Positions 5,794 through 59,466 of a stretch of DNA of 63,774 nucleotides are shown here, in pieces. The position numbers and the translations under genes are program-made. This stretch comes from Candidatus Acidiferrales bacterium. Its GTDB lineage: Bacteria > Acidobacteriota > Terriglobia > Acidiferrales > UBA7541. Numbering within the stretch: the stretch's first letter is position 1; each line of letters begins with the position of its first letter. The notes under the pieces are model-generated. The model saw only the letters and a program-made list of their open reading frames with translations. It did no database searches and was not told the DNA's origin. Location: assembly GCA_030038535.1 (NCBI GenBank), contig JASHSV010000362.1:1-63774 (forward strand), in the 5' to 3' direction.

Positions 5794-5880
5794 AAACAAC
5801 AAGTATCCTATATCCGGGGCGCGCCAGAAAGATTGGATGCAGGGAGCGGCGGCAGGCGCTGGCCGACGGGCGCTGCCTGG

Positions 5881-33173: not shown

Positions 33174-33932
33174 CTACCTCACACAGATGGCCACAAACTG
33201 ATTGGCCTGACGAAGCTGAGAGCGTTCGATTACCCAGTAATCGGGCACAGCGGCCTCGCCCACGGGCACTTCAAAGGCTTGCTGCAGCCGCTCGCGCTGC
33301 CCATTGGGAAGCAGGCGCAGACGCAGATTGAATACATCCAGCGCACGCAGCGTGGAATAGAGCCGGTTGCCCCGCCGGCGCTGACCAAAGATCTGGACCT
33401 CGCGGAAGTGCCTATTCAGAACGCGGCGGAAACCGGAAAGATCCAGCATGTTGATGTGAAAAGGATTGGACTGGCCGATCGACTTCATGTGCACGTCGGC
33501 GGTAACCACGTTTGGAGTGGAGAGAATCAGCCTTCCCCGGGGATCCAGGACCCGGAGGCACTCCATCAAGAAGTCATCGTGGCTTTCCAGGTGTTCGAAG
33601 ACTTCGAAGCAGACGATCAAATCGAAACGGGACGAAGGAAAGGCCAGGCGTTGACAATCCATGCGCGCAAAGGCGACGCCCGGACCGGCAAAGTGCTCGC
33701 GCGCATACCCGACAGCCTGAGGTGCGTTGTCGATTCCCACAACTGAGTGTGCTTTCTCCCGCAGCAGCCGCGAGCCGTAACCCGTGCCGCAACCGGCGTC
33801 GAGCACGCGTTCGCCACCCTTCATGTTTTTGAATGCGAAGCGATACCGAGCCAGGTGGTGGTGGTAGGAGACGCGGTCCGGCCCGTCGGGACGCGGCCGC
33901 TCATCATCGAGCGTGAGACTCTGCGGCTTCAC
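33174..33932 (-). CDS. Class I SAM-dependent methyltransferase
   Basis: A 252-residue protein with the Methyltransf_11/23-type core: motif I RVLDAGCGTGYGSRLL (about 43-58), DLIVCFEVFEHLESHDDFL (motif II, about 104-122) and GRLILSTPNVVTADVHM. The long C-terminal part after the core suits a large acceptor. Starts with GTG in a GTGA overlap with the GT4 upstream. Likely O-methylates a sugar or a carrier-linked glycan, by context. Confidence 0.82.
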   Translation of the reverse strand: MKPQSLTLDDERPRPDGPDRVSYHHHLARYRFAFKNMKGGERVLDAGCGTGYGSRLLREKAHSVVGIDNAPQAVGYAREHFAGPGVAFARMDCQRLAFPSSRFDLIVCFEVFEHLESHDDFLMECLRVLDPRGRLILSTPNVVTADVHMKSIGQSNPFHINMLDLSGFRRVLNRHFREVQIFGQRRRGNRLYSTLRALDVFNLRLRLLPNGQRERLQQAFEVPVGEAAVPDYWVIERSQLRQANQFVAICVR

Positions 33933-35146
33933 GGCACCGGCTCCGTGAGCATTTGCATGCTTTCAATCCTCGTTGCCCACAACCGCCAGAGCTCGGTGGA
34001 GAACACCGCCGCTGCGCGATGGGGTTCAAATTCTTCTTCAGCATGCCGCCGGGCGGCCCCGCCTAGCTCAGCCCGCAGCGCGGGGTTCGCGAGCAGGACT
34101 TCCAGCCAGGCGGCCATGGCCACTTCGTCTCCCGGGGCGGTGAGCCAGCCGGTGCGCTTGTGGTCGATCATCTCCAGCGGACCGCCGGCGGCGGAGGCCA
34201 GGACGGTGCGGCCGCAGGCCATCGCCTCCGCAACCACCAATCCCCATGGTTCCGGCTCGACGGACGCGTGCACTACTACGTCACAGGCGTTCATCCAATC
34301 CTCAGGATTCGCGCGGTTCCCCAGAAACCGCACGCGCCCGGCCAGCAGCGGCTCCTCTGCCATGCGTCGAAGCTCCTCCGCATATTCCGGCTCGAGCCCG
34401 AACAAAGAGCCGCCCACGACTACAGCCATGAAGCGCGTGCCGCGACCGGCCATCAAACCGGCGGCGCGAAGGAAGATGTGCTGGCCCTTCCAATGCTGCA
34501 ACCGCCCGAAGATGCCGATAAGCGGCTGGTCAGCCGGAATGCCCTCTTCCTTGCGAACGCGGGCGCCGGCTGAGGGATTCGGACGAAATCTTTCGAGATC
34601 CACTCCGTAGCGCACCAACCGGATGCATGGATGCCCCGGAAAATCACGGGCGAGCAGTTGCTCTGTGAACTTGGAATTGGCATAAAGCGCGTCTGCCGCA
34701 AGCATGCGTTCGGCGCGAGCAATGGGGATCCTGCCTTCCGGAAGTGACGCCTGCGTATAGCCGTGAACCCACCAAGCGCAGGGACGCCGGGCAATACTCG
34801 CGGCTGGGCGGGCAAACAGGTTTGCATGGCCGCCATTGCTCACCACGACGTCGATCTCCTGCTTGCGGATCAGCTTATGCAGCGCCCGAATCTTGGCGGC
34901 CGTGCTGGCCACATTGCGAAAGCGCCCACGAGGCAAGCGAAAGACAGGTATCCCCAGACCTTCGAAGAGTTCCGGCAGGCGGCCTTCTCCAAAACCGAGA
35001 GAGGCAACTACGGGTTCGACCGCAGTTCTCTCCAAGTTCTCGAGCATGGTCAACAGCGCCACTTCCGCACCGCCGACCTCCGTTGTGCTTTGGACGAAGA
35101 GCACGCGGAGCGCACGCTGCGGAGCCGCCGGAGTCAGTTTAGGCAT
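33929..35146 (-). CDS. GT4 glycosyltransferase
   Basis: A 405-residue GT-B enzyme starting MPKLTPAAPQRALRVLFVQS. GT4 features are TTEVGGAEVALLTML, WWVHGYTQASLPEGR, LVRYGVDLERFRPN, the donor-site GIFGRLQHWKGQHIFLRA and PEPWGLVVAEAMACGRTVLAS (E-x7-E). The ATG at 35146 lies 19 nt after the stop of the GT-C gene; the ribosome binding site is weak and the frame is open upstream, but homology begins here. Confidence 0.86.
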   Translation of the reverse strand: MPKLTPAAPQRALRVLFVQSTTEVGGAEVALLTMLENLERTAVEPVVASLGFGEGRLPELFEGLGIPVFRLPRGRFRNVASTAAKIRALHKLIRKQEIDVVVSNGGHANLFARPAASIARRPCAWWVHGYTQASLPEGRIPIARAERMLAADALYANSKFTEQLLARDFPGHPCIRLVRYGVDLERFRPNPSAGARVRKEEGIPADQPLIGIFGRLQHWKGQHIFLRAAGLMAGRGTRFMAVVVGGSLFGLEPEYAEELRRMAEEPLLAGRVRFLGNRANPEDWMNACDVVVHASVEPEPWGLVVAEAMACGRTVLASAAGGPLEMIDHKRTGWLTAPGDEVAMAAWLEVLLANPALRAELGGAARRHAEEEFEPHRAAAVFSTELWRLWATRIESMQMLTEPVP

Positions 35147-35165
35147 GTCAAAAGGATCGATGAAA

Positions 35166-36734
35166 TCAATTGTTCGTTCTCGCTGCGGATTCGTTTCCGC
35201 CTGCGCACTGGTAGGTCCGCACTTCGATCCGCCAGGCTGGCTGCCGCGCGCTGGCGAACCAGCGCTGTTTCCATGCGAACCCGGTGTCGGCCATCTCGCG
35301 TTCCACACCGTCGAGATGGCAATTCTCGTCGAGCGCTGCCTCAGTAGCCGCCGTGGATCCCCAGTACGCCTCATCGGTGGCGCCCTTGACCAATAGCGTG
35401 GTCGGGCCGTACACCTGTCCCGCCTGGAGCCACTGGATGGGATCAAACAACTGAGGATGTTTCAGCCATACCGGGTAAGAACCGACAAAATCGCTGGCTC
35501 CGATCCCGCTCGGGGAGCGCATGGCGTCCGTCAGGTAAAAGAAAAACGAAGGATTGTTGCCGATCACCACCGCTCCCCTCTTCACCTCGCCGGCAGCCTG
35601 TTCGGCCACCGGCTCCCACGGCTCGATGAGCCGGGGCGCCGCGTAATACCGCCGGGAAAGAATTCCGAACCACCCGATGGCCGCAACCAGGCTCAGTGCC
35701 AGGATCGCGCCTTTTCGAATTCCGGGACGGGTCACGCTGCCAAGCATCGCGGCCAGAGAAATCAAGAGCCACGGGGAAAGGAACAGCAGCCGCTTGGTGT
35801 TGATCAGATTCAGCAGCGTCATCACCAGAGTGCAGGCCAGGAAAATCAGGAACAGGCGGCGCGCCGCCGGCGGGCCGTGGCGCAGGACGAGAACGGAGCA
35901 GAAGGCGATAGCCGAAAGCGCGGGGATGCTGAAATACCAGAACCACGGGGCAACCGATTCGCTCACAAAAAGCGTGTACAGGTTGTAACCGCAGAAGAAC
36001 ATCGTGGCGACCGCGGAATAGACAGGGCGCAGTATCCCCTGATCCGCGAAGACGCGGAACACCAGCGCATGCAGCAAGGGCACAAAGCCAAGCAGAACGA
36101 CAACGACGGTCGCACCTGCCGCAGCCACGCGCTTCGCATCGCCGCGGTGCCGGATCCAGAAATCGAGTGCGAGAAAGCCGATCAGGACAGCCAGGAAATA
36201 GTTCGTGTAAACGGCCAGCTCGCAGGCCACCACCAGCAACACCCACCTTCCCCATGCCGGTTTCGCTTCCAGCCACAGATACGCGAAGGTGAGTAGCGCG
36301 AGGGTGAAGAAGGAAAACGAATACCAACCTGCGATCCTCCCAAAGTGAAAGCCATAGGGGAACACCACGCCGATCCAGAGGGCGGCACGGGAGGCCGCGG
36401 CTCCTGCTACCAATCCCGCGGCCTGAACGCTGAACCACAGTCCGAGCAGGTAGAAGGTGATGGCCGGCACGCGCAGCAGGCTGACGCGACCTCCGCTCAA
36501 ACGCAGCCATCCGGCAAGCAGCAGGTCGTAAAGGGGCGGATGGCGGTGCAGCCCCGTGCCGTTGGTAAAGGAGTGGATGGTCTGCTGAGCCGGAATCGTG
36601 GCGTCCAGAAGCATGGCAATTTCATCGTCCATGAACGTGAACCAGCGATTCGTAAGCAACATCACGGTTCCCAGGGCGAGGAGGACCAGGACGGTGAGCA
36701 GGGTGTTCCGCGCCGTGTTCTGTGCAGCGTACAT
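35166..36734 (-). CDS. GT-C membrane glycosyltransferase (PMT/ArnT-like)
   Basis: A 522-residue protein with about 10-11 membrane segments in the first 400 residues and a soluble C-terminal region. The first extracytoplasmic loop has the acidic motif RWFTFMDDEIAMLLDA, followed by HRHPPLYDLLLAGWLRL, a layout typical of GT39/GT83-like GT-C enzymes using polyprenyl-phosphate sugars. One of at least five GT-C proteins in the window. Acceptor unknown, probably the exported glycan or a lipid. Confidence 0.75.
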   Translation of the reverse strand: MYAAQNTARNTLLTVLVLLALGTVMLLTNRWFTFMDDEIAMLLDATIPAQQTIHSFTNGTGLHRHPPLYDLLLAGWLRLSGGRVSLLRVPAITFYLLGLWFSVQAAGLVAGAAASRAALWIGVVFPYGFHFGRIAGWYSFSFFTLALLTFAYLWLEAKPAWGRWVLLVVACELAVYTNYFLAVLIGFLALDFWIRHRGDAKRVAAAGATVVVVLLGFVPLLHALVFRVFADQGILRPVYSAVATMFFCGYNLYTLFVSESVAPWFWYFSIPALSAIAFCSVLVLRHGPPAARRLFLIFLACTLVMTLLNLINTKRLLFLSPWLLISLAAMLGSVTRPGIRKGAILALSLVAAIGWFGILSRRYYAAPRLIEPWEPVAEQAAGEVKRGAVVIGNNPSFFFYLTDAMRSPSGIGASDFVGSYPVWLKHPQLFDPIQWLQAGQVYGPTTLLVKGATDEAYWGSTAATEAALDENCHLDGVEREMADTGFAWKQRWFASARQPAWRIEVRTYQCAGGNESAARTNN

Positions 36735-43918: not shown

Positions 43919-43965
43919 GCTAAGATAGCGGCCGCTGCCGTTGGATTTTGGGCCACGGAGCATTC

Positions 43966-44979
43966 GTGCATCCGACCGACGACGCCAAAACTGGTGCGAG
44001 CACTCCCGATCCTCTGCCGTTGACGGTTCTGATTCCTGTTTTCAATGATTGGACTGTGGCCGACGCGCTCGTCGCCAAGCTGGATGCCGCATTCAACAAG
44101 CACGGACTCACCGGGCGTGTTGTGTTCGTGGATGATGGCTCCACGGAGCCGGCTCCCCAAAAGTTTCCGCAGACGACGCCGCAGACGCTCAAAGAAGTCT
44201 GCATCCTGGAGCTCAAAAAGAATCTGGGTCACCAGCGCGCTCTAGCTGTGGGCCTCGTGCATCTCCACCAGAGCGGCGTCCAAGGCGTGATCGTGCTCAT
44301 GGACGGAGACGGAGAAGACGAGCCCTATGAAATTCCACGCCTGCTGGAAGAATTTGGCAGGCAGGGACGGCGGAAAGTCGTGTTCGCGGCGCGGGGCCGA
44401 AGAGCAGAAGGCGTAATTTTCAAGCTCTGTTATCAAATCTATCGCACGATTCACCGGCTGCTGGTGGGATTCGATATCCGGATCGGCAATTTCAGCGCCG
44501 TGCCAGCCAGTTTCCTGGAACCGCTCGCCGTGACCCCGGACCTGTGGAACCACTACGCGGCGTGCGTAATCAAGATGAAATTGCCGCACGTATCGATACC
44601 GGTCGACCGCTCGAAACGGCTGGCGGGAGAGTCGAAAATGGATTTTGTGGGTCTGGTGATCCACGGGCTGAGCGCCATGTCCGTCTTCGGCGACGCGGTC
44701 GGGGTGCGTCTGCTCACAGCCACCGGCGTATTCGCGGTGGCCACGGTTGTTCTGATGATTGCCGCGGTGGTGGTCAAATTCACCACGGATCTGGCGATTC
44801 CGGGCTGGGCGACCACGGCGACCGGCTTGCTGCTTGTGCTGTTCTGCCAATGCCTCCTGCTTTCCCTGATTTTCACCTTCGTGGTTCTCTTCAGCCGCGG
44901 GCAATCGAGCTTCGTTCCGGTGCGGGACTGTCCGCTCTTCATCCGCGGGGAGAGAACCGTGTTCACACGGCATGACTGA
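43966..44979 (+). CDS. GT2 polyprenyl-phosphate sugar synthase-like (DPM1/GtrB-like)
   Basis: A 337-residue protein: a GT-A domain beginning LTVLIPVFNDWTVADALV with VVFVDDGST, LKKNLGHQRALAVGL and the catalytic VLMDGDGEDEPYEI, then two C-terminal membrane segments (about 225-250, 265-300). This architecture is that of enzymes that load a sugar on undecaprenyl/dolichyl phosphate. The product would be the donor for the GT-C proteins around it. GTG start at 43966 preceded by GGAG; a TTG at 43948 is possible. One of only two plus-strand genes inside the minus-strand locus. Confidence 0.83.
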   Translation: MHPTDDAKTGASTPDPLPLTVLIPVFNDWTVADALVAKLDAAFNKHGLTGRVVFVDDGSTEPAPQKFPQTTPQTLKEVCILELKKNLGHQRALAVGLVHLHQSGVQGVIVLMDGDGEDEPYEIPRLLEEFGRQGRRKVVFAARGRRAEGVIFKLCYQIYRTIHRLLVGFDIRIGNFSAVPASFLEPLAVTPDLWNHYAACVIKMKLPHVSIPVDRSKRLAGESKMDFVGLVIHGLSAMSVFGDAVGVRLLTATGVFAVATVVLMIAAVVVKFTTDLAIPGWATTATGLLLVLFCQCLLLSLIFTFVVLFSRGQSSFVPVRDCPLFIRGERTVFTRHD

Positions 44980-45676
44980 GGCCCGCTACGTCGGCACGGA
45001 ACTGGAGATCTTCGCTCACGCTACCAACTGGAAGTCCTATGTGCGCTCGCAGGTGCGTCCTTATCTGACGGGCGACGTTCTGGAAGTTGGGGCGGGGATT
45101 GGCGCCGCGACGCTCGCATTGAACGAAGGCGGTCCACGGCGATGGGTGTGTCTCGAACCGGACTCCACTCTGGCCGCGAGAATCCAGGCGACCGTCTCCA
45201 CCTCCCTGCGGAATTGTGAAATTGTGATTGGAACGCTCGACACTATGGATTCGAAAAGCCAGTTCGACGCCATTCTTTACATGGACGTCCTGGAACACAT
45301 CGAGAACGACGCCGGAGAACTGGCCCGTGCTACGCAACATCTGAACCCAACCGGCCATCTGGTGGTTGTGGCGCCTGCGATGCCGTGGCTCTATTCGCCA
45401 TTCGACGCAGCCATCGGCCACCATCGTCGGTATACAAGAAACTCCCTGCGCGCGATCGCGCCGCCAGACTTGCAGGAAGAAAAGTGCATATATCTGGATT
45501 CGCTCGGGATGCTGGCCTCGGCGGCAAACCGGCTATTGCCGCGCTCGCCAGCTCCTCGTCTCGGCCAGATTCGTTTCTGGGACCGATTCTTGGTCCCAAT
45601 CTCCCGGTTCACAGACATTGTGCTGGCCCACTCGCTGGGAAGATCGGTTCTGGCCGTTTGGCAGAAAAAGCGCTAG
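44972..45676 (+). CDS. Class I SAM-dependent methyltransferase
   Basis: A 234-residue protein overlapping the GT2 stop by 8 nt. Motif I is DVLEVGAGIGAATLAL, the acidic loop CLEPDST, and FDAILYMDVLEHIENDAGEL (motif II). The GHHRRYTRNSLRAIAPPD segment is typical of the methyltransferase family often paired with dolichyl-phosphate-mannose-synthase-like GT2s in exopolysaccharide loci. Acceptor unknown. Confidence 0.82.
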   Translation: MTEARYVGTELEIFAHATNWKSYVRSQVRPYLTGDVLEVGAGIGAATLALNEGGPRRWVCLEPDSTLAARIQATVSTSLRNCEIVIGTLDTMDSKSQFDAILYMDVLEHIENDAGELARATQHLNPTGHLVVVAPAMPWLYSPFDAAIGHHRRYTRNSLRAIAPPDLQEEKCIYLDSLGMLASAANRLLPRSPAPRLGQIRFWDRFLVPISRFTDIVLAHSLGRSVLAVWQKKR

Positions 45677-47243: not shown

Positions 47244-49163
47244 TCAAGCAGCACCCGATATCGGCTTTCGGGCTACGAGTTCAATGCCCTGGGCCCACCA
47301 GCGGCGGAAGGGCTGCGGAATCGAATCGATGTTGATGCGCACCGGCCGGCCACATAGCGTTCCCCGGTAATGCAGCCTGTCGACCTCCAGTCCGGGCGGA
47401 AGAATCTGTTCCAGCTCGCGAGCGGTGAATTCCCGCACGTGCGAGGGCTCGAGCACCATACGGCGGAGCATGGCGCGGTAGAACCACCGCGGATGCCAGG
47501 GGCGAAGATATTGCAACCGGTTCGGAGTGGTGAGCAGGAGTTTCCCGCCGGGACGCAATACGCGGTGGACTTCGCGCAGGAGAAGATCCGGGCGGGCCAA
47601 ATGTTCGATGACCTCAACCGCCAGGACCCAGTCGAACGTGGCGGAAGGAAACGCGAGCGCGCACGCATCGCCCTCCACGAGACTTTCTACGCCGAACGTC
47701 TTCCTGCCGAATTCGAGCAGCCGGGCATCACGATCCACAGCAATCACGGAGTTTGAAGGCTCTCGCTGGAAATACGCAGCCTTCCAACCGGTGCCGCAAC
47801 CGAGATCGAGAATACGGCCGGCGATGTGAAGATCGTCCCACTGCTCCATCTCGCGAAAGCCATTCGGGGCCTGTTGCAGCTCTTCGCTCAGCTTGACGAG
47901 GACTCCGGCGAGGCGTTCGCCGGGATCCTCCCTGAGTTCATCGCTCCACCGGCCTTCCTGAAGAACAAACCGCCGTGGCTGCTTCTCCGTGGCTTCTGCG
48001 AGGAGCGTCTCCCATTTTTCGGCGGCCGCATCCCAAGTTAGGCCTCGCGCGGCGTCCCGGGCGGCGGAGCCCAAGCGAACGCGAGTTGGGGCAGAGCCGA
48101 TGAGGTCAGAAAGGGAACGCGCAAGCGCAGCGGCATCTCCCGGGGGCACGAGGAGACCATTCACGCCGTGCGTGATTACGTCGCGCATGCCGCAGATGTT
48201 CGTTGTGACGCAAGGAAGTCCCGCGGCCATGGCCTCGAGGAGCGTGAGCGGCATGCCTTCAAAATGCGAGGGTAGAACGTAAATCTGGTCGAGCCCGAGG
48301 AGCAGGGGAAGCTCCTCGCGGCAGACGGAGGGCAAAACGTCCACGGCGCTGCGATCCGCAGGCGCGAAGTCTTCGCGCACTACATCAACCGGAGTCCCCG
48401 ACCCTAGCACTGCGGCACGCAGGCCGGGCCGGGACTGCCGCAGCTCCGAAAATACAGCCGAGAATTCACGCGTACCTTTTCTAGGGATCCAGGATCCCGC
48501 AAACAGAAGACGCGGCTCCGCCATTGGCGCCCACTCGACGCGGAACAAATCCGCATCCACGCCGTTGTTCATGCGGTGGATGCGCGCGGAGGGAACTTCC
48601 CAGCGGCGTTCGATATATCGAGCGTCGTCGCTCGAAAGGCATACGACCGCGTCCGCGTGGCAGAGCGAATAATTCGCCTGCGCCAATTCCGTGATCGGAT
48701 GGACCACTTTTGTCTTAAGGGTTCGCCTGGCTTTCTCCGCTCCCAGGTCCCAGCAGTGTTGCTCCACGCCGTGCGACATCACCACGCATGGCGGGAGCGC
48801 GGCGTTCCACTTGCGTGCGAATGTATAAGCCATTCCGGAAGGCTCGTGAATGACCACGACGTCGTATTTCACCGCGTTTCGCGCCACACGCCGCGCTGCA
48901 GCGACAGGAAACGCAAAACGTGCAAGACGTCCCGAGCTCAACGCGGCCGAAACGTCCTCGCGCAGAAGCGTTTCGACCGTATGCCCGCGGCGGCGAAGCG
49001 CGCTGGCGAGCGAAAGCACAGCGTTCCCGGCGCCCGTCCGCAAATCGCCGCTGAATCCGGCGACGAACAGGATTCGCAGCAGGCGCGTGGCTGCACGCGT
49101 GGCTGGGGGCGGCTCGGCTCGCACGGCCGTAACCGGCGCAACCATGGCAGCGGTTTGGTTCAT
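47244..49163 (-). CDS. GT4 glycosyltransferase fused to SAM methyltransferase
   Basis: A 639-residue two-domain protein. Residues about 28-400 are a complete GT4 enzyme: RILFVAGFSGDLRTGAGNAV, MNNGVDADLFRV, LLFAGSWIPRKGTREF and SHFEGMPLTLLEAMAAGLPCVTT (E-x7-E). After a short linker, about 430-600 is a class I methyltransferase: RILDLGCGTGWKAAYF (about 450), FDWVLAVEVIEHLARPDLLL (about 515) and GGKLLLTTPNRLQYLRP. The frame is continuous with no stop between the domains. Presumably adds a sugar and methylates the product or a neighbouring position. The ATG at 49163 follows the upstream methyltransferase stop by 16 nt. Confidence 0.86.
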   Translation of the reverse strand: MNQTAAMVAPVTAVRAEPPPATRAATRLLRILFVAGFSGDLRTGAGNAVLSLASALRRRGHTVETLLREDVSAALSSGRLARFAFPVAAARRVARNAVKYDVVVIHEPSGMAYTFARKWNAALPPCVVMSHGVEQHCWDLGAEKARRTLKTKVVHPITELAQANYSLCHADAVVCLSSDDARYIERRWEVPSARIHRMNNGVDADLFRVEWAPMAEPRLLFAGSWIPRKGTREFSAVFSELRQSRPGLRAAVLGSGTPVDVVREDFAPADRSAVDVLPSVCREELPLLLGLDQIYVLPSHFEGMPLTLLEAMAAGLPCVTTNICGMRDVITHGVNGLLVPPGDAAALARSLSDLIGSAPTRVRLGSAARDAARGLTWDAAAEKWETLLAEATEKQPRRFVLQEGRWSDELREDPGERLAGVLVKLSEELQQAPNGFREMEQWDDLHIAGRILDLGCGTGWKAAYFQREPSNSVIAVDRDARLLEFGRKTFGVESLVEGDACALAFPSATFDWVLAVEVIEHLARPDLLLREVHRVLRPGGKLLLTTPNRLQYLRPWHPRWFYRAMLRRMVLEPSHVREFTARELEQILPPGLEVDRLHYRGTLCGRPVRINIDSIPQPFRRWWAQGIELVARKPISGAA

Positions 49164-49179
49164 CACCTGCGTCTCACAG

Positions 49180-49995
49180 TCAGGAGATTTTCTGAAACGC
49201 GACGGCCACATTAATGGCCACGTAGGGGCCGAGCCGGGCGTCAATCCCGTCCCAGAGAGCCTCCCAATTGAGGGCGAGCGGACCCGGCTGATACCCGTTG
49301 GCCGCGGACGCGGCTTTGCCGTTGCGGGGCGTCAGCAGCTTGTGCAGCGTCCGATGCGGATGGACCAGCAGCCGGTCCATAAGCCTTCCATGCTGGTAGC
49401 CCACCGCGCCCGTCACCTTGAGCCCGTAATGTGGCGCCCAGCGACGCAGCTCCGCAGCGCTATATTCCGTCTCCCATCCCCACGGCCAGTTGCCCTCGCG
49501 CATGGCCTGATGTTTCCGCAGGGTATAGACATTAAATTTCTGCGGCACGTCTACCACGAGCGCTCCGCCCGGCCGCAGGACGCGAACCTGCTCGCGCATG
49601 GCGGGTGCAGGATCGCGGAAGTGCTCGAGCACGCCCTGGCTGAACACCAGATCGAACTCGCCGTCGAGAAAGGGAAGCGCCGTCAAATCGCCCGCAAACG
49701 CGCGCAGGCTTACGCCCAACTGGTCCGCATTTTCCCGAGCCACCCGAATCGCCTTCTCCGAAAGGTCGCAAACGTAAGCGCCGAGCGCGGGACGGCCCGC
49801 AGCCAACAAACAGCTGTCGAGGGCTGTGCCGCAGCCCACCTCGAGCGTACGCGCCGCGCGCGTCTCCGGCAGCAGCCGCTCCAGTAGCTTGAGCAGCGGC
49901 CGGCGCGAACTGCGGTGGATGGCGAGCTGAGTCCCGAGCGGCCCTTTAAAGTGAGCCCAAAATACCTCGTAAAATTGGCGATCGTTCGTTTTCAC
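49180..49995 (-). CDS. Class I SAM-dependent methyltransferase
   Basis: A 271-residue protein with motif I ARTLEVGCGTALDSCLLA, the YVCDLSEKA acidic loop, FDLVFSQGVLEHFRDPAPAM and GGALVVDVPQKFNVYTLRKH. The GTG at 49995 forms a GTGA overlap with the GT2 stop; longer in-frame sequence upstream lies inside the GT2 gene and is not conserved. The C-terminal region after the core is about 90 residues. Substrate unknown. Confidence 0.82.
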   Translation of the reverse strand: MKTNDRQFYEVFWAHFKGPLGTQLAIHRSSRRPLLKLLERLLPETRAARTLEVGCGTALDSCLLAAGRPALGAYVCDLSEKAIRVARENADQLGVSLRAFAGDLTALPFLDGEFDLVFSQGVLEHFRDPAPAMREQVRVLRPGGALVVDVPQKFNVYTLRKHQAMREGNWPWGWETEYSAAELRRWAPHYGLKVTGAVGYQHGRLMDRLLVHPHRTLHKLLTPRNGKAASAANGYQPGPLALNWEALWDGIDARLGPYVAINVAVAFQKIS

Positions 49996-51041
49996 GGTGA
50001 GAGGGATTCGACCGTTTCCGCGGGCAGAAAGTGTCGACGCAGATGAAGCGACGCACCTCCCAGGGCGTGTCGGTTCCGCAGCTTCTCGAACGCCCCGTAG
50101 CCAAGCAGCAAACCGACATAGGTCATCAGGCAGCGATAGGCGCGGTACCGGCGCGTCCACAGCGGTCCATAAACGAGGCTATGTAGCTGGAGATGCCTAA
50201 AGAACTCCAGCCGCCCCGCCCGCGTCGCGTGAAACCGATTCTGCTGTTCGATGAGGTCGAACCGGCTCATGAAAGCAGCGAGGTCGGGCGCGCGCGTGTC
50301 GAAGCCGTGAGCATCGAGCCACGCCCTGGTCTCCTGCGTCAGGGCACTCGTTGCACGCAACCTGCGTTCCACGCGCTCCGCGTCGCCCTCGCCGAAGTGG
50401 AAGCGGTTGTTCGTGTGCAGCCGGTATTTGAACAGCGGTTCGTTCAGAATCGCCACCGGAGCAAGGAAGAGCAGCAGCACCTGGAGATAGGCGTCCACCA
50501 AGAGGCTCATGGAATCGGGAATCGGGAAAACCGCGCCCGCAATGGATTTTCGGAAAAGCAAACCGGAGGTGGAGCTGGTGCCGTAGCGAAGCAGGTCCAT
50601 GCGAGTCGGCGGAAATTCCCCCGACAACACCGGAAGATCGGGATCCTCAAGCGACGTCTGCTGGGTGGTGTTCCATACCCACCGTTTGTGGAGGAGCATG
50701 CCGCAGGCGGGCTGGCGGTCAAACGTCTCCACGGCGCGGCGAATCTTCTGCGGTAACCACACGTCGTCGGCGTCCAGGAGCGCGATGATCTCGCCTCGCG
50801 CGTGGATGTAGCCGAGATTGACGGCAGAAGCCTGTCCGCCGTTTGGCTTCCAGAGATACCGAACGTGATCTCCGAATTTCGCCACACGCTCACGCGTGTC
50901 GTCCGTGGAGCCATCGTCGACGAGCAGGATTTCCATTTCCGAAGCGGGAGAATCCTGCGCAAGCACGCTTTCGATCGCCTCTTCGACAAAGCGCCCATAG
51001 TTATACGTATTGATCAGCGCGGTGACGCGAGGCGAACTCAT
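49992..51041 (-). CDS. GT2 glycosyltransferase (tandem paralogue A)
   Basis: A 349-residue GT-A enzyme. RVTALINTYNYGRFVEEAIESV, ILLVDDGSTDDT, GGQASAVNLG and ALLDADDVWLPQKI are standard GT2 donor-site motifs. Over the first 110 residues it is strongly similar to the neighbouring gene at 51038-52123; the C-terminal acceptor half is more diverged, suggesting duplication then change of specificity. ATGA overlap at 51038-51041. Confidence 0.87.
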   Translation of the reverse strand: MSSPRVTALINTYNYGRFVEEAIESVLAQDSPASEMEILLVDDGSTDDTRERVAKFGDHVRYLWKPNGGQASAVNLGYIHARGEIIALLDADDVWLPQKIRRAVETFDRQPACGMLLHKRWVWNTTQQTSLEDPDLPVLSGEFPPTRMDLLRYGTSSTSGLLFRKSIAGAVFPIPDSMSLLVDAYLQVLLLFLAPVAILNEPLFKYRLHTNNRFHFGEGDAERVERRLRATSALTQETRAWLDAHGFDTRAPDLAAFMSRFDLIEQQNRFHATRAGRLEFFRHLQLHSLVYGPLWTRRYRAYRCLMTYVGLLLGYGAFEKLRNRHALGGASLHLRRHFLPAETVESLSP

Positions 51042-52123
51042 CGCAGCTCCAGGGTCTCCGTGCGGCCTGCACCGGCCGCGGACTCGAAATCGCGCCGAAG
51101 CGCAGGCACCAACGATTCACGCAGGCGCGGCAGCGAAAGTGAGCGGCGGTAGAATTGCTGCGCGGCATAAAAGCCGTGATAGCCGAGCGCGAAACCGACG
51201 CCTGCTTTCAAATCGTCGAAGACCCGGAAGGCGGGCGACCAGAGTGGAGAATAGAGCCGGTGTTGCCGGCGCAAATGCGCGAAAAACTCCGTGCGTCCTG
51301 GGGGACGCATGACGAATTGCTGAAGCTGCTCCACCAGCGCCATGCGCTCCAGAATGAGTGCGGCCGCGGGGGTACGGCCGAGGAAACCGTTGCGATCTAG
51401 CCAGCGGCGTGTTTCCTCTATCGCACAGCGGAAAGAATCGTTGCTCCTTTTTGCGCGCACCGGATCGGGCCTCGCGGAATAGGTGAGATTGGTGTCGTGC
51501 TGACGGTATCGCGCCAGGCACTCCGCAACGGTCGCCACCGGAGCGCAAAAGATCGCCGTGGCAATGATAAAGCTGTCGGCGAGCACCGTCAGGCTCTCCG
51601 GCAAGGGGAAGATGCGGCGGGCGACGTCTCTGCGGAGCGTGGTCCACGAGGTGCTCACGCTGCCGAACCGCAAGATGGCGTCCTCCGAGTCGGGAAGGTA
51701 GCCGTTCAAGGACACGAACGACGCATCGTCCTCGCAGCGGCCGTCCTCCGGGCACCAATACTGGCAGCGGTGGAAGATGGTTCCGGCATCGGCGTGCTGC
51801 GCGAATTCCTCCATGACGCGGCGAATCTTGTGCGGAAGCCACACGTCGTCCGCATCGAGCAGAGCAATGATCTCGCCGCGCGACTGCGCGAATCCCACGT
51901 TAAGCGCGGAGGCTTGACCGCCATTCTCCTTGCGGACATAGCGAATGCGATCCGAGTAGTGTGCGGCGACCCGGGAAGTGGAGTCGGTCGAGCCGTCGTC
52001 CACCACCAGGATTTCCATCTCGCCTGCGGGGAAATCCTGCGCCAGGACGCTTTCGATCGCCTCCGCGAGGAAGGGCTCCTGGTTGTACGTGTCAATGAGC
52101 GCAGTAACGCGCGGATGTGACAT
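51038..52123 (-). CDS. GT2 glycosyltransferase (tandem paralogue B)
   Basis: A 361-residue GT-A enzyme with RVTALIDTYNQEPFLAEAIESV, ILVVDDGSTDST, GGQASALNVGF and ALLDADDVWLPHKIRR. It shares near-identical donor-domain blocks with paralogue A. The central part contains several Cys residues (CQYWCPEDGRC) absent from paralogue A. It begins 7 nt after the FkbM gene stop. Sugar specificity unknown. Confidence 0.87.
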   Translation of the reverse strand: MSHPRVTALIDTYNQEPFLAEAIESVLAQDFPAGEMEILVVDDGSTDSTSRVAAHYSDRIRYVRKENGGQASALNVGFAQSRGEIIALLDADDVWLPHKIRRVMEEFAQHADAGTIFHRCQYWCPEDGRCEDDASFVSLNGYLPDSEDAILRFGSVSTSWTTLRRDVARRIFPLPESLTVLADSFIIATAIFCAPVATVAECLARYRQHDTNLTYSARPDPVRAKRSNDSFRCAIEETRRWLDRNGFLGRTPAAALILERMALVEQLQQFVMRPPGRTEFFAHLRRQHRLYSPLWSPAFRVFDDLKAGVGFALGYHGFYAAQQFYRRSLSLPRLRESLVPALRRDFESAAGAGRTETLELR

Positions 52124-52130
52124 GGGTCTG

Positions 52131-53081
52131 CTACTTCCGGTATGCGTAAATCAACAGGTCTTGAAAACTCTCGCGAGCCGACGTCTGCCAGGGCATAGTC
52201 CGAATCTGATAGCCGAAGCCGTTGTCTTCCAACAGGCGAAGCGTATGGGAGAGAGCGTCCTCTCGCGGATTAATGTGATGGTGATATTCGACCACCATCT
52301 GCCTGATTTGAGCGAGCCGGCCCGACCGCGCCAGCTCCTCCAACACTTCCACCTCCGCGCCCTCGATGTCCATTTTCAGAAAGTCTACGGGCTCGGTAAT
52401 GAAGTTCGAGAGGGGAACGCCGTTCACGATTTGAGGCTTACCCTCCAGGCGCGGCTGACGCAGGCTATTCCACCCGGAACCGGGCTGGGTTGAGCTTTCG
52501 AAGAGTGCCACGGGCCCTTCAGCCGCCGTCAAAGCCAGATTGTGCAGCTCCACTCCCGTGAGCCGATTGACCTCCACGTTTCGCGAGAGCATCTCGAATG
52601 TCTGCTTGCTGGGCTCGAAGGCCACCAAGCGCGCTGCGGGATAGAGCCGCTTGAAGAAAAACAGTGCTACCCCGATGTTGCTCCCGCAATCGAAGACCAG
52701 CGGGTTACTCGCTTCGCAGGAGAATTCATAGTCGCGGCGGAGAAAGATTTCCTCGACGAAAAACGAAAGGGACTGGTAGTCAAAAGCCTCCACGGAAAAA
52801 CCGAGCACATTTTCTTTCACAAATCGCCGGCCCGGTGACAACTTCATCAGAAACTGCTTCTTCCGCATTCGAAGCACGAGCAGGGCGAGCGCCCAACGCT
52901 CCGCTCTGCGGGAGTGGTGAAATGCATGAAGCACATCGCCAAACGCACGTGCGGCAAACGCGACTGCGTTCCGCGCCCGGACCAGCGCGGGTACGCCCCG
53001 CCCGGGAGAAGCAACGAGCGGCGCCTGGGCCGTCGCTTCCGCAGGTTGCGCCAGGTTTGAGGATGGGGCGCTGGCTGACAT
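52131..53081 (-). CDS. FkbM-family methyltransferase
   Basis: A 316-residue protein with a basic N-terminal half and a C-terminal FkbM-type methyltransferase domain: VFDCGSNIGVALFFFKRLYP (SAM motif), ARLVAFEPSKQTFEML, VDFLKMDIEGAEVEVLEELA and MVVEYHHHINPRED. FkbM family members O-methylate sugars or polyketides. Within this locus a sugar hydroxyl is the likely target. An AGAAAAGAA sequence precedes the ATG. Confidence 0.85.
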   Translation of the reverse strand: MSASAPSSNLAQPAEATAQAPLVASPGRGVPALVRARNAVAFAARAFGDVLHAFHHSRRAERWALALLVLRMRKKQFLMKLSPGRRFVKENVLGFSVEAFDYQSLSFFVEEIFLRRDYEFSCEASNPLVFDCGSNIGVALFFFKRLYPAARLVAFEPSKQTFEMLSRNVEVNRLTGVELHNLALTAAEGPVALFESSTQPGSGWNSLRQPRLEGKPQIVNGVPLSNFITEPVDFLKMDIEGAEVEVLEELARSGRLAQIRQMVVEYHHHINPREDALSHTLRLLEDNGFGYQIRTMPWQTSARESFQDLLIYAYRK

Positions 53082-53096: not shown

Positions 53097-54170
53097 TCAG
53101 GCCCTGGCAGCGGTCTGTCGCTGGGCCATCTCCGCTTCGAGGATCTCTTTGAGAATCTTATCGAGCGAGTGCGTGATTTCCCAGTTGGGGTAGTGGGACC
53201 GGAACTTGGCGAGATTCGAGATGTAGCAGATGTGGTCGCCGGTGCGCGGCTGGTCGCGGTACTCGCGACGAATCTTGTTACCGCTGAGCTGCTCGATGCG
53301 CGCGACGGCTTCGAGTATGGAAATGCTGTTCGCGCGGCCGCCGCCGATGTTGTACACCTCACCGGGGCGGGGATTTCGCGCGAATTCCTCGACGGCGCGG
53401 ATGACGTCGAAACTGTGGATGTTGTCGCGCACCTGCTTCCCCTTGTAGCCGAAAATCGTGTAGGTTTGCCCGCTGAGCGCCACCTTCACCAGATAGGAAA
53501 GAAAGCCGTGGAGCTCGACGCCGGAGTGGTTCGGCCCGGTCAGACAGCCCCCGCGGAAAATGCCGACATTCATGCCGAAGTAACGGCCGTACTCCTGCGC
53601 GACAAGGTCGGCCGCGGCCTTCGAAGCGCCGAACAGGGAGTGGAGTGTGCGGTCGATGCGGCAATTTTCGTCAATCCCCTCGAAATCCTCCGGACGCGCG
53701 TAGTCGTAGCGGGTTTCCAGCTCGACGAGCGGCAGTTCGTTCGGCGCGTCGCCATAGACTTTATTCGTGCTCAAGAAAATGAAGGGCGCCTCGGGGCAAA
53801 ACTGGCGTGCGGCTTCGAGCAGGCAGATGGTGCCGAGAGCGTTCACATCGAAATCGAGGAGTGGGATTTCGCGTGCCTTGTCGTGCGAGGGTTGCGCGGC
53901 GCAGTGCAGGATGAGCTCGAAGCGTTCGGCGCTGAAGAGTTCGAAAATCTTCTCCCGGTCGCGGATGTCGAGATCCAGCGGACGGAAATTCCGAGTCGCA
54001 CTTTTGAGCCGTGCGAGGTTCCAGGACGTGTCGCCGGGAGGGCCGAAGAAGACTTGGCGCATGTTGTTGTCGATGCCGATGACGCGATGGCCCTGGCGGT
54101 CGAAGTGTTCAACGGCTTCCGAACCAATCAGTCCGCTCGAGCCGGTGACGAGGATGCGCAGCAGCTTCAC
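53097..54170 (-). CDS. CDP-paratose 2-epimerase-like SDR (catalytic Tyr replaced by Phe)
   Basis: A 357-residue extended SDR similar to CDP-tyvelose/CDP-paratose epimerases. The NAD loop is [28 protein letters not shown] is typical of the family, as are [15 protein letters not shown] and [17 protein letters not shown]. The catalytic Y-x3-K motif instead reads F-G-A-S-K ([13 protein letters not shown], codon TTC), with Ser/Thr and Lys retained. Activity may be altered, non-oxidative, or assisted by another residue. Starts with GTG, overlapping the GT-A-like gene's stop by 4 nt. Confidence 0.85.
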
Positions 54171-55099
54171 GGCTTGCTTCTCGTCGTTCCCAAGCGGGTC
54201 CGTAGCGAGTCAAATCTCTCCTTGCGGAGTCCCAGAGCGTGCCGGAGGGGCCGGGAAACGCGCAGCGAGGCCGAGAGCCCGTTATAAGCCACGCGAGAGA
54301 GCGCGCGGCGGATCAACGAAACATGGCGGGACCAGTTAGGAACGAGGCCGCGCGCCGCGAGGCGATGGGTGGCATCGTCAACTGTGCCCACCCAATGAAG
54401 GCCTCCGCCCACCTCGATATTTCGCATGGCAAGCTCATCTTGCCACACGCCGATGGCGCCCTGCAGGTGGTAGGCGTAATCGTGGTTCTGATGAATGGCG
54501 AGGACCGAGGCCGTGGCGTCGATCACAGGCACGTGCATCGAGAGAGCGCGCCAGACAAGCCAGTTGTCCCAGGCGACCCGGCCGATGACGAAAGGAGGAA
54601 TCGCGTCGTACAAGCCGCGCGGGAAAACAAAGTAGTCGATCCATTGTCCCGGGCGCTCGACGCCCTCGCATAACGCGCGCTGGCGGAGCCGGGAGGACCA
54701 ATCTGCTTCCTCGAACGCGATCGGCTCGGTAACGTCCAGATCACGGCGGCGGCCGAGCAGGAGGAAGCGCAGCGACTGTTGCGACACGCGGCGCACCGCC
54801 TCCAGCAGGTCCGGCAGAAACAGCATGTCGCAATTGGCGAAACACATCAGAGGATTGCGGGCGATCTGCTGGGCGTGGGCGAAGAAGGCATTCAGATATT
54901 TGAGCCCAGACGGGTGCCTTGGCGCCTCGGGGATTTGACGGATGGCCAATTCGCGGGCAACTTCCGATGCGCCCTCGTCGTCACCAAACAGAATGACTTC
55001 GACCGCAGGACCGAGGCGCGTCCAACTGGCCAGCGCATTGCGCTGAATGGTGCCGATGTGCCCGCGAAATGGCTTCGGAGTCGTGAACAGTGTCAGCAT
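54167..55099 (-). CDS. GT-A-like protein of unknown specificity
   Basis: A 310-residue protein. An N-terminal [29 protein letters not shown] and [19 protein letters not shown] (a DxD-like CDM site) suggest a GT-A nucleotide-sugar-binding fold. [29 protein letters not shown] is a distinctive later block. I recognise this as a recurring uncharacterised glycosyltransferase-like family in polysaccharide loci, with no confident donor. Overlaps the epimerase start by 4 nt. Confidence 0.6.
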
Positions 55100-55868: not shown

Positions 55869-56665
55869 AGAGAACCCGAAAGGCGCCTGCGCACTGAAGC
55901 CACTTTTTCCGGCCACGGTTTCGTCAGCAGCCGCCCCAGGCTCCGCAGCGGCGCTCCCAGCCGGTCCCATGCCGTAGTCCAGGGATCCAGTTTGGCGGAT
56001 GGCTCCGGCACGCTCTCAAGTTGCGACAAATTGAGCTCCCCACGCGAAGCAACCAGCATCGTGCGAGATTTCTTCTGCCGCAGGGAGTTGCGGTAAGCCG
56101 GGTGCTCGGGATTCTTCCTAAGGCTATAAACGAAGGAAAAGCCCGCGCGATACATGAGTTTCGCAAGACAAGCTTCCGACGGGTAAAAGGCCACGAACTG
56201 AAGGCCCTGATCCGCCGTCCGGCATTCGTCGCGCAATTCCATCAGTGGAAGATTGGATGGAAGGCACATGCTTTCGACTAGGAGAACCTTTCCTGTAAGA
56301 GCATGCAGATTGCGCAGAGCCCGAAATGGATTTTCCAGATGATAGAGCAGGCCGAAACAGAGCACCACATCCGCGGGGCCGTACCTCCGTACCCCGTCGT
56401 CTTCCAGGTTCGCGGTGAAAAACTGCACCCGGGGATAGCGGCTGGCCGCGAGCACAGCGTTTTCTGCCCTGCCGTCCAGGCCTGTTACGCGAAATCCCTC
56501 GGAATGAAGAACGCCCGAGAAATATCCGGAACCACAACCCACATCGAGAGCGGTCTCTGCGTTCAATTTTTTCTTCAGCCCGTCCAGCAGCGGGCGCATG
56601 ACGGCTTCCCGGCTCTCATTGAGCGTGGCATAGTGAGCCTGGTCGAAGACCGGTGCCGATTTCAT
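55865..56665 (-). CDS. Class I SAM-dependent methyltransferase
   Basis: A 266-residue protein with FDQAHYATLNESREAVM at the N-terminus, motif I TALDVGCGSGYFSGVL, VTGLDGRAENAVLA and ADVVLCFGLLYHLENPFRAL. It resembles methyltransferases linked to O-antigen modification. Its ATG overlaps the Wzt stop by 4 nt. In ABC-dependent O-antigens, terminal methylation adjacent to Wzt commonly caps the chain; that role is inferred here. Confidence 0.83.
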   Translation of the reverse strand: MKSAPVFDQAHYATLNESREAVMRPLLDGLKKKLNAETALDVGCGSGYFSGVLHSEGFRVTGLDGRAENAVLAASRYPRVQFFTANLEDDGVRRYGPADVVLCFGLLYHLENPFRALRNLHALTGKVLLVESMCLPSNLPLMELRDECRTADQGLQFVAFYPSEACLAKLMYRAGFSFVYSLRKNPEHPAYRNSLRQKKSRTMLVASRGELNLSQLESVPEPSAKLDPWTTAWDRLGAPLRSLGRLLTKPWPEKVASVRRRLSGSL

Positions 56666-57894
56666 AGGCGATTCTCTTCGCTCTCAGCCCGAAACTCCGA
56701 CGGCAAGTTCATAACGCCGTTCCATTCGTCGAGGGGATGTTGGTGGTTTTCCGTGGCGACGATCATCTCCGGCGCGCCATGCCACATATCAACCAACCCA
56801 TGGTCATCCCAGAGGCTCACCTGCCAGGTGAAGGCGCCGGGGCGCAGAGGCAGGACGGGGAATCGGTATCGAAACGCGCAGATGCCAGGTGAGAGATGCA
56901 GGTTCTGTTCCGCGTGGCCCCAAATCAATTGCTGATTGGAGTCAAACAAGGACACGCCGTGAATCCCGTGGTGGATTGGCTGGTGGACATCCAAAAAGAA
57001 ACACACCTCGACGGGGCCAAGCACGTCGAGGATGTGCCGCTCTTCCCCGCGCCGCTCGACGATCTCCCAGCGCAGGAAACGTGCCCTGTAGTTCTGATCG
57101 CCGCTCGGCACCCGATCCTTGCGCTCGCCCGCGCTCATGGCCAATTCGTATGCGCCGACCACTTCCGCGGTCTTTCCTTGCCGGCGAACCCCGCCTTCCA
57201 GCCAAATGACATTACGACACAGCCGTCGAATCTGATTCATTTGGTGACTGACGAAAAGGACAGTGCGGCCTCCGCGGGTGACCTCGTCCATTTTGCCCAA
57301 GCATTTCTTCTGGAACTCGAGGTCGCCGACGGCAAGCACTTCATCCACTAGCAGCACCTCCGGCTCGAGGTGCGCGGCCACGGAAAACGCCAGGCGGAGC
57401 TGCATGCCGCTCGAGTAATGCTTCAGCGGCGTGTCGAGAAACGTTTCCACACCGGAAAACGCCACAATCTCGTCGAACTTGCGGCGAATCTCCCGGCGCT
57501 TCATTCCCAGGATCGACCCGGAAAAGTAGATATTCTCACGGCCCGTGAGTTCGGGATGAAAGCCCGTGCCGACTTCCAGCAAGCTGCCCACGCGCCCGCG
57601 CACCTCGGCGCCGCCTTCCGTGGGCATCGTGATGCCTGCAAGGATTTTGAGAAGCGTGGATTTGCCGGCGCCGTTACGGCCGACGATTCCGATCGTTTCG
57701 CCCTCCTCCACCGCAAACGAAACGTCGCGCAGCGCCCAGATGTGCGCTTGCCCATTCCCGTTGGAAACCGCGCGGCGGCGGAAGGGCGCCGTCACCGCAC
57801 GTGCGAGCACGTCGCGCAGGGCGATATACCGCTCCCGTTCGCCCAGACGAAAGCGCTTGCCGAGCCCGTCAACTCGAATCGCCGCAGCAGACAT
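56662..57894 (-). CDS. wzt: Polysaccharide ABC exporter ATPase with C-terminal extension (Wzt-like)
   Basis: A 410-residue ATPase that powers glycan export with Wzm. The nucleotide-binding domain has Walker A GRNGAGKST, a signature HYSSGMQLRLAFS and Walker B EVLLVDEVLAVGD, then the H-loop (VLFVSHQMNQIRR). About residues 245-410 form a beta-rich extension matching the carbohydrate-recognition domain of Wzt proteins that bind a terminal modification of the O-antigen. ATG at 57894; a GTG one codon upstream is an alternative. Overlaps the methyltransferase gene by 4 nt. Confidence 0.92.
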   Translation of the reverse strand: MSAAAIRVDGLGKRFRLGERERYIALRDVLARAVTAPFRRRAVSNGNGQAHIWALRDVSFAVEEGETIGIVGRNGAGKSTLLKILAGITMPTEGGAEVRGRVGSLLEVGTGFHPELTGRENIYFSGSILGMKRREIRRKFDEIVAFSGVETFLDTPLKHYSSGMQLRLAFSVAAHLEPEVLLVDEVLAVGDLEFQKKCLGKMDEVTRGGRTVLFVSHQMNQIRRLCRNVIWLEGGVRRQGKTAEVVGAYELAMSAGERKDRVPSGDQNYRARFLRWEIVERRGEERHILDVLGPVEVCFFLDVHQPIHHGIHGVSLFDSNQQLIWGHAEQNLHLSPGICAFRYRFPVLPLRPGAFTWQVSLWDDHGLVDMWHGAPEMIVATENHQHPLDEWNGVMNLPSEFRAESEENRL

Positions 57895-57915
57895 CACAGT
57901 TTCGCGGAGGCCGCC

Positions 57916-58827
57916 CTACACCACATCCGCCACCGTTGCTTCCATGCGCCGGAAATACCAGAGGCCCACAATGAGCATCACGAGGACGGCGCTTGCCGAC
58001 GCGGCGACGAGCCCCCAGCTGGGAGCATTTTGGCCGGTAACCGACCAGCGAAATCCGTCAATCACGCCAACCATTGGATTTAGACCGTAAAGAGTCCGCC
58101 AGCGCTCCGGCACGAGACTGGAGGGATACGCCACGGGCGACGCAAACAGCCAGAACTGCACCAGGAAGGGCATCACGTAGCGGACGTCTCTGTAAAGCGC
58201 ATTCAGCGCCGCAAGCCAAAGCCCCGCGCCCAGTGCGGTGAGCATCGCGAGCAGCAAAAATGCGGGCAGAAACACAAGCCACGGACCGGGCGTCACACGG
58301 TAGTAGAGCGCCATCCCGGCGAGCAGGACGAGCGCGATGGCAAAATCCACGAGGCCCGAGAAGACGGCGGACAGTGGCAGCAAAACGCGCGGGAAATAGA
58401 CCTTTGTGATCACACGCTGGTTTTCCACCACGCTGGTCGTGGCGCCAGAGAGTGCGCCCGCGAAATACGTCCAGGGCAGCAGCGCGGCATAGAAGAAGAG
58501 CGGATAGGGGATGCCGCCCGATGGAATCTTCGCCAGCCTGCCGAAAAACAGGGTGAAGACCAGCATTGTGGCAACTGGCTGAATTACCGCCCAGCCCGCT
58601 CCGATCACCGTCTGTTTGTAACGTACTTTGATCTCGCGCCACACCAGGAAATAGAGCAATTCGCTGTAATCGGCCAGCTCCCTCAGGTTCAGAGCATGCA
58701 AGCGGCCGGGCGGCGCGATGCGCTTCACAGGAAGCGCGTGTGCCGTGCCGTGCGGCTCGGTGGCCACGGAGGCGCTTCTGGCGGCGACTGCCAGTGCTTC
58801 CTCCACGGGATTCGATTTCGTGCTCAT
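57916..58827 (-). CDS. wzm: Polysaccharide ABC exporter permease (Wzm-like)
   Basis: A 303-residue ABC-2-type membrane protein with an N-terminal cytosolic segment (about 1-45) and six predicted membrane spans. The LRELADYSELLYFLVWREIKVRYKQTVIG N-terminal gate sequence and the C-terminal LNPMVGVIDGFRW region are typical of Wzm/RfbA-like permeases. It forms the pore for undecaprenyl-linked glycan flipping with the adjacent ATPase. ATG start; 21 nt before wzt. Confidence 0.91.
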   Translation of the reverse strand: MSTKSNPVEEALAVAARSASVATEPHGTAHALPVKRIAPPGRLHALNLRELADYSELLYFLVWREIKVRYKQTVIGAGWAVIQPVATMLVFTLFFGRLAKIPSGGIPYPLFFYAALLPWTYFAGALSGATTSVVENQRVITKVYFPRVLLPLSAVFSGLVDFAIALVLLAGMALYYRVTPGPWLVFLPAFLLLAMLTALGAGLWLAALNALYRDVRYVMPFLVQFWLFASPVAYPSSLVPERWRTLYGLNPMVGVIDGFRWSVTGQNAPSWGLVAASASAVLVMLIVGLWYFRRMEATVADVV

Positions 58828-58857: not shown

Positions 58858-59466
58858 CTACAGAGGAATGACTTCGTACCCCGCAAGTTCGACTGCAACA
58901 GCCTGGCGTATGGCGTCCACGGCCACAACCAATCGATCCTGTTTTTTGACCCGCACCAGAATTCCTTCGACTCCCGCTAGAGCACCGCTGGCGATTTTGA
59001 CGCGCTGGCCGACCCGGAGATAACGGTGCGGGTGGAGCAGTGCTCTCTCGTCCGCCAGCCTGCGGAGCGCCGCGATTTGCTCAGCGGGCACCTCTGCATA
59101 GGTCTGCCCGAAACCCACGATGCGCACGACGCCGACCGTGCGCAGGATCGCGGTGCGCTCTGCAGATGCAGGAGCGAATTGCGCGAACAAATATCCACGG
59201 AACATCGGGACTTCAACCTTTTGGTAACGGTCCTGCCAACGATGCACTTCCAAGCGCAGCGGCAGAAAAACGGGCAGCCGCTTTCGGTCGAGCTGCTCGG
59301 CCACCTGTTTTTCGAATCGCGAGCGCGTGTAAAGAGCGAACCAAGCTGAGGCCCCGACCGCTTCCGTCCTCTGGGGCGCTGTGAGCGGCGCAGCAGGCAG
59401 GAAACGGAATTGATGGAGTTCGGACAAAGCTCCGCCCTTGTCGGTTACATGGCAAACACAATGCAA
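58858..59466 (-). CDS. NusG paralogue, UpxY/RfaH-like antiterminator
   Basis: A 202-residue protein from a TTG start. An NGN domain (WFALYTRSRFEKQVAEQLDR and RGYLFAQF, about 42-120) is followed by a KOW domain (RVGQRVKIASGALAGVEGILVR, about 150-175). The long N-terminal extension and position before wzm-wzt match locus-specific NusG paralogues such as UpxY and RfaH. These bind RNA polymerase and allow transcription through long polysaccharide operons. The start is uncertain; a later TTG at 59427 is another choice. Confidence 0.84.
   Translation of the reverse strand: MHCVCHVTDKGGALSELHQFRFLPAAPLTAPQRTEAVGASAWFALYTRSRFEKQVAEQLDRKRLPVFLPLRLEVHRWQDRYQKVEVPMFRGYLFAQFAPASAERTAILRTVGVVRIVGFGQTYAEVPAEQIAALRRLADERALLHPHRYLRVGQRVKIASGALAGVEGILVRVKKQDRLVVAVDAIRQAVAVELAGYEVIPL

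Follow-up and report, generated by a model that had tools for sequence, protein, structure and literature searches.

The window, the whole 63,774-nucleotide stretch of Candidatus Acidiferrales contig JASHSV010000362.1 that was analyzed, carries a gene cluster in which a single frame codes for both a family GT4 glycosyltransferase (GT) and a class I methyltransferase (MT) dependent on S-adenosylmethionine (SAM). The features discussed below are as follows.

47244..49163, minus strand: fused gene, GT4 plus class I SAM-dependent MT, 639 amino acids
47988..49082, minus strand: GT4 half with GT-B fold, residues 28 to 392 (Pfam, EX7E residues, Foldseek)
47823..47987, minus strand: linker or N-terminal extension of the MT, residues 393 to 447 (76% identical in the fused relative G001; low model confidence)
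47247..47822, minus strand: MT half, residues 448 to 639 (Pfam, SAM motif I, class I)
49180..49995, minus strand: separate class I MT, 16 bases upstream of the fusion (GTGA overlap with the upstream GT2 gene; same order in G001)
49992..51041, minus strand: GT2 glycosyltransferase, PF00535 (ATGA overlap with the next GT2 gene; syntenic in G001 and relatives)
51038..52123, minus strand: second GT2 glycosyltransferase (Pfam)
56662..57897, minus strand: Wzt-like ATPase of a polysaccharide-export ABC transporter (Wzt_C at 29.5 bits, just below the cut-off of 30.4)
57916..58827, minus strand: Wzm-like permease of a polysaccharide-export ABC transporter
58858..59466, minus strand: UpxY-family transcription antiterminator, a NusG paralogue (above the NCBIfam cut-off)
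59486: O-antigen-ligase-type gene
62278: BY-kinase-type gene
33174..33932, minus strand: separate class I MT, GTGA-coupled to the upstream GT4 gene at 33929-35446 (41% identity over 102 residues to the fused MT)

On the minus strand, positions 47244-49163 form one frame that runs from an ATG to a stop codon without interruption and codes for 639 amino acids. The mechanically called open reading frame offers TTG 49244 as an alternative start, but the relative in G001 begins, with a GTG, where the window gene has ATG 49163. Pfam domains PF13439 (residues 44 to 205) and PF00534 (residues 213 to 370; E value, 6e-29) in the GT4 half and PF08241 (residues 452 to 543; E value, 6e-22) in the MT half all scored above the curated cut-offs. 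Residues E302 and E310 of the GT4 half and the D453-LGCGTG stretch of the MT half, the EX7E motif of GT4 enzymes and SAM motif I, respectively, were retained in both fused orthologues (2/2). The protein thus has at least one GT domain and at least one MT domain in a single uninterrupted frame; its first half combines PF13439/PF00534 with EX7E, for which retaining transfer is predicted, and its second half combines a Rossmann-type domain with SAM motif I. Membership in families as broad as GT4 and the class I MTs does not point to a substrate, and, as to sugar O-methyltransferase activity of the MT half, none of the 25 NCBIfam models listed scored at its cut-off.

The structural prediction agrees with this domain assignment: the AlphaFold model begins with a GT-B enzyme and continues into an MT core. 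The best Foldseek matches of the predicted GT4 half were the GT-B enzymes PglA, GlgM, ManT, MshA, and BshA. In the model, about 54 residues separate the last GT helix (377-393) from the first MT strand (449-454). The pTM was 0.57 and the pLDDT was below 50 at residues 397-446, so how the two domains sit relative to each other cannot be read from the model, and no claim of facing active sites can be made. The first-pass annotation had described a complete GT4 enzyme and a complete class I methyltransferase joined by a short linker in one frame. The open 639-residue frame and the Pfam scores bear out the two complete domains, and a linker does join them, but "short" is slightly generous for a stretch of about 54 residues that is modeled at low confidence.

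A fusion of the same build is present in a second genome of the genus, in contig JASHRU010000017.1 (G001:C143). The two 639-residue proteins are 68% identical in a gap-free alignment, and the GT2 and MT genes that lie upstream of the fusion in the window do so in G001 as well. G001 counts as one independent relative, with L009, L028, and L067 being one and the same contig. Nei-Gojobori counting (script) on the window and G001 genes gave low dN/dS values along most of the protein (GT4 half, 0.22; linker, 0.19; MT half, 0.18) and a higher one, 0.66, over the first 27 residues. Both halves of the fusion are under purifying selection.

These comparisons bear on whether a frameshift or misassembly conceals a stop between two genes, an explanation that is extremely improbable. 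Nothing was found in its favor; the two assemblies are fragmented (369 and about 430 contigs). Against it, the same 639-residue frame occurs in two genomes at 68% identity with no alignment gap, and this recurrence, together with selection on both halves, indicates that the fusion is not a sequencing error. The first-pass annotation had named such an error, or homologues that are always split, as grounds for abandoning the fusion; neither was found, and its suggestion of looking for the same fusion in other genomes yielded the fused homologue in G001. That synonymous sites differ less in the MT core than in the GT (pS 0.38 vs 0.62) was considered as an anomaly and dropped, since sliding values lay within the local range; pS was 0.40 for the neighboring GT2 gene and 0.57 for the MT gene at 49180.

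The BY-kinase-type, O-antigen-ligase-type, UpxY, and Wzm- and Wzt-like genes, together with the MT domains, identify the cluster as a surface polysaccharide locus of the ABC-transporter type. The exporter is also found in relatives. Among seven Wzt-like proteins, the Wzt_C domain was above the cut-off of 30.4 bits in one (L098, 30.6 bits), below it in five, including that of the window (29.5 bits), and absent in one. The UpxY gene (58858-59466, minus strand) lies directly upstream of the exporter genes, a position that hints at antitermination during transcription of the long cluster. Eight MT domains (at 33174, 41211, 44972, the fusion, 49180, an FkbM-type domain at 52131, 55131, and 55865) are spread over about 23 kb of the cluster (33174-56665), and their number suggests that the glycan is probably heavily methylated.

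The fusion occurs once in its own genome. When its MT half plus linker was searched against 95 genomes of the order, scores were 557.9 bits in G000 and 454.2 bits in G001, the only two members of the genus in the set, and 62.4 bits or less elsewhere. The fused methyltransferase is therefore confined to these two genus members among the 95 genomes. A search with the GT4 half, which covered 101 genomes (own, genus, family, order, and class), recovered ten near-full-length stand-alone GT4 proteins from the same family (L010-L019, with flanks L056-L065), at 29 to 36% identity and with no MT in frame. Such stand-alone relatives show that sugar transfer does not depend on the MT.

In a tree of 27 GT4 proteins, the two fused and ten stand-alone proteins formed one clade (support, 100/99), with the fused pair sister to the ten. 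In a second tree, to which more distant GT4 proteins of the phylum were added, the ten again grouped together (100/99) and the fork joining the fused pair was left open. Because the surrounding GT4s are mostly stand-alone, the simplest reading, which is not proven, is that the MT was most likely gained in this genus onto a pre-existing GT4; it is from this pattern that we infer the direction of change. Searches of viral, phage, and plasmid sequences with the fusion gave no record that covers 80% of it: the query's patterns matched nothing in the viral collection, phage records gave weak matches only (none of 26 matching records covers 80% of the query), and none of 984 matching plasmid records covers 80% of the window protein.

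The loci of the ten stand-alone relatives resemble that of the fusion. A GT2 gene lies next upstream of the GT4 gene, directly or across one MT gene, in 7/10, and an MT gene lies next upstream of the GT4 in 4/10. Two of the three loci without a GT2 gene there are on short contigs, and the third has an unassigned stretch between the GT2 and the MT. Longer flanks were available for eight of the ten loci; a Wzm-like permease was present in seven of these, Wzm- plus Wzt-like genes in six, a close match (at least 594 bits) to the epimerase-like gene at 53097 in five, and the gene at 54167 in six. In one relative (G043, L056), a second GT4 copy split by stops (4941-5375 and 5379-6107, plus strand) lies beside the intact one and resembles a decaying duplicate.

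It had also been proposed from the sequence that separate GT and MT genes in the locus are translationally coupled, and that they show an intermediate step toward fusion. The coupling is real. The GT2 gene at 49992-51041 and the MT gene at 49180-49995 share a GTGA (49992-49995), the GT4 gene at 33929-35446 and the MT gene at 33174-33932 share another (33929-33932), and the GT2 gene at 43948-44979 overlaps the MT gene at 44972-45676 (plus strand) by 8 bases (44972-44979). The inference drawn from it is not supported. The GTs at 49992-51041 and 43948-44979 are GT2 enzymes, a fold class other than GT4, and 4-base overlaps are common, being found at 8 of the 21 listed junctions between 30.7 and 58.8 kb, between several kinds of genes that include pairs other than GT and MT. 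Moreover, the fused MT is C-terminal, whereas in those four of the stand-alone relatives that have an adjoining MT gene, this gene lies upstream of the GT4 gene.

The pair at 33 kb has the order of the fusion, GT4 then MT, and its MT (33174) is the best match to the fused MT among MTs of the genome (41% over 102 residues), which makes it a candidate parent at most. The MT tree (140 alignment columns) did not place the fused MT beside any coupled MT, and none of six partner groupings was rejected by approximately unbiased (AU) tests (P values, 0.11 to 0.44). The alignment neither backs nor rejects as parents the MT at 49180, the upstream MTs of the relatives, the MT at 33174, the Azospirillum fusions, or the GT2-MT proteins described below. 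An intermediate step of coupled genes is thus not supported; it is neither shown nor needed.

GT-MT pairings in one chain are already known elsewhere, and the present fusion adds a further example. A tblastn search of plasmid records recovered 616-residue Azospirillum proteins (WP_149200976.1 and WP_014249802.1), annotated "glycosyltransferase," that have a GT4 followed by a class I MT in a single frame. When an Azospirillum fusion was used as the query, 3 of 2,417 matching records covered at least 80% of it, and all three were from Azospirillum. The Azospirillum proteins differ from the window fusion in their low identity to it (about 26%), in a GT4 half that belongs to another GT4 branch (AU P value, 0.0005 for a clade with the window pair), and in the adjoining gene, which within the stretch shown is an oligosaccharide flippase rather than an ABC exporter in both records.

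Among 396 genomes of the phylum, for which the best three candidates per genome were considered, 11 had a match to the window protein at an E value of 1e-25 or better. At least two of these 11 (G370 and G394, from one genus of another family, f84) have a GT4 and a class I MT, in that order, in a single frame (L111, 1204-3495, minus strand, and L114, 1150-3258, minus strand), and a third (G281) spans GT4 and MT as two adjoining genes. The GT4 halves of the two f84 proteins are 91% identical and belong to a branch other than that of the window pair (AU P value, 0.0025 for a clade with it). A single clade of all six fused GT4 halves was rejected (AU P value, 6e-5), which indicates at least two origins of the GT4-MT arrangement; one and two origins of the Azospirillum and f84 fusions were indistinguishable (AU P value, 0.38). 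The end of PF00534 and the start of PF08241 are separated by 81 residues in both genus members, by 83 and 77 residues in the Azospirillum proteins, and by 90 and 89 residues in the f84 proteins. Single chains in another family of the order (L085, 1824-3485, plus strand, 554 residues; L087, 1648-3279, plus strand, 544 residues) likewise share one frame between GT and MT, with a GT2 instead of a GT4. No paper on a GT4-MT fusion was among those listed in searches of a limited open-access collection.

It is possible that the two domains were joined for co-expression or localization only, with the MT targeting a residue or intermediate other than the product of the GT4. The MT genes are many and vary in position within the cluster and among the relatives, and the tree singled out no nearest partner of the fused MT; both points count in favor of this reading. 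However, the linker is under as much constraint as the MT (dN/dS, 0.19), and GT-MT chaining recurs in unrelated lineages. Thus, it seems unlikely that the fusion serves convenience alone.

Two characterized enzymes, in each of which the methylated sugar is one added by the same chain, offer closer guides to function. WsaE, of the S-layer glycan of Geobacillus stearothermophilus, is described as an N-terminal MT followed by two rhamnosyltransferases, with the MT methylating an alpha-1,3-linked rhamnose (PMC2943079). By that description, it resembles the fusion in being one soluble chain with MT and GT domains that acts on an ABC-exported glycan and methylates a rhamnose, and differs in its N-terminal MT and its two GT domains (MT-GT-GT). 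A064R of chlorovirus PBCV-1 (638 residues, GT-GT-MT) has, like the fusion, a C-terminal class I MT, and this MT is described as methylating O-2 of the terminal rhamnose, the product of the same chain (PMC9614988). As described, one of its GT domains has a GT-A fold and the other belongs to a new family, neither being a GT4, and the protein is viral and builds an N-glycan.

By analogy with these precedents, the GT4 half would add a sugar and the MT half would methylate that sugar. The observed fusion, with its intact motifs, conservation, synteny, lineage-limited distribution, and recurrence elsewhere, is best accounted for by a bifunctional enzyme, gained in this genus, that helps to build a Wzm/Wzt-exported polysaccharide and whose MT methylates the glycan built by the GT4. 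We assign this reading a probability of about 0.58. Its GT4 half would use a nucleotide sugar as donor and add one sugar, with its configuration retained, to a growing lipid-linked glycan. Its C-terminal MT would then use SAM to O-methylate that glycan, most likely at the newly added sugar, and the product would be a surface polysaccharide exported by the Wzm/Wzt-type ABC transporter. The enzyme would have arisen in this genus when an MT domain joined the C terminus of a GT4, an enzyme that in relatives still stands alone in a comparable locus. We infer the substrate, the order of the two reactions, and the position of the methyl group. Points against this reading are the stand-alone relatives, in which the GT4 has no need of the MT, the breadth of the two enzyme families, the low-confidence domain arrangement in the model, and the open fork in the second GT4 tree. 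That methylation is tied to glycan building, as the first-pass annotation had suggested, is a sensible reading of the fusion.

That annotation had raised methylation directly after sugar addition and, as the alternative, a cap that stops chain extension; either may apply. In such a scheme, the GT4 would add the last sugar and the MT would methylate it, so that growth stops and the chain is marked for the carbohydrate-binding domain of Wzt, in parallel to the methyl-phosphate ends of E. coli O9a and the proposed O-methyl end of O101. The locus does have Wzm- and Wzt-like genes, and the Wzt_C-like tail scores 29.5 bits in the window and 30.6 bits in L098 (cut-off, 30.4). Export is described as restricted to terminated chains, with the end group sensed by the carbohydrate-binding module of the transporter (PMC11231755), and O-methylation of O101 requires an MT gene, a result interpreted in that report as end-capping (PMC13168486).

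The ABC-type terminators covered in PMC11231755, however, have a coiled-coil ruler in the protein, and none was found in the fusion; a home-made heuristic heptad score was no better than for shuffled sequences, and the low-confidence model has no long helix in the linker. WbdD of E. coli O9a is described as an MT, a kinase, and a coiled coil (PMC3482155); by that description, it is likewise a methyltransferase tied to an ABC-exported polysaccharide and lacks the GT of the fusion. Compared with this combination of MT, kinase, and coiled-coil ruler, the fusion has the MT, with no Pfam kinase family and, by the heuristic score, no coiled coil. In addition, any of the seven other MT genes in the cluster, two of which adjoin the Wzt gene, could be the terminator, and relatives with the same type of locus are without a fused MT. 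A capping role therefore appears rather unlikely; if the methyl group is an end cap, the fusion would be a terminator lacking the usual ruler. It is doubtful, though conceivable, that GT4-then-MT is a recurrent, independently assembled transfer-and-methylate module (with the Pfam domains 77 to 90 residues apart across the six cases) that serves here as a ruler-free, kinase-free single-chain terminator for ABC export.

The fusion is of interest because fused domains hint directly at the sugar transfer that a given methyltransferase serves, and such assignments are seldom easy in clusters rich in both. This soil-type bacterium bears a genuine two-enzyme single protein within a surface-polysaccharide cluster, and the occurrence of one GT4 both with and without an MT, in the same type of locus within one bacterial family, makes the addition of an MT testable by comparison.

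Two other arrangements in the cluster were observed. The gene at 54167, which had no Pfam or NCBIfam match, is conserved among the relatives, and it recurs together with the epimerase-like gene at 53097 (the two span 53097-55099 in the window) at the same locus in several family members (L092-L104). Toward the far end of the cluster, a heparinase II/III-like protein (20650-22740, minus strand) is encoded beside a WecA/MraY-type sugar-phosphate transferase (22785-24350, minus strand).
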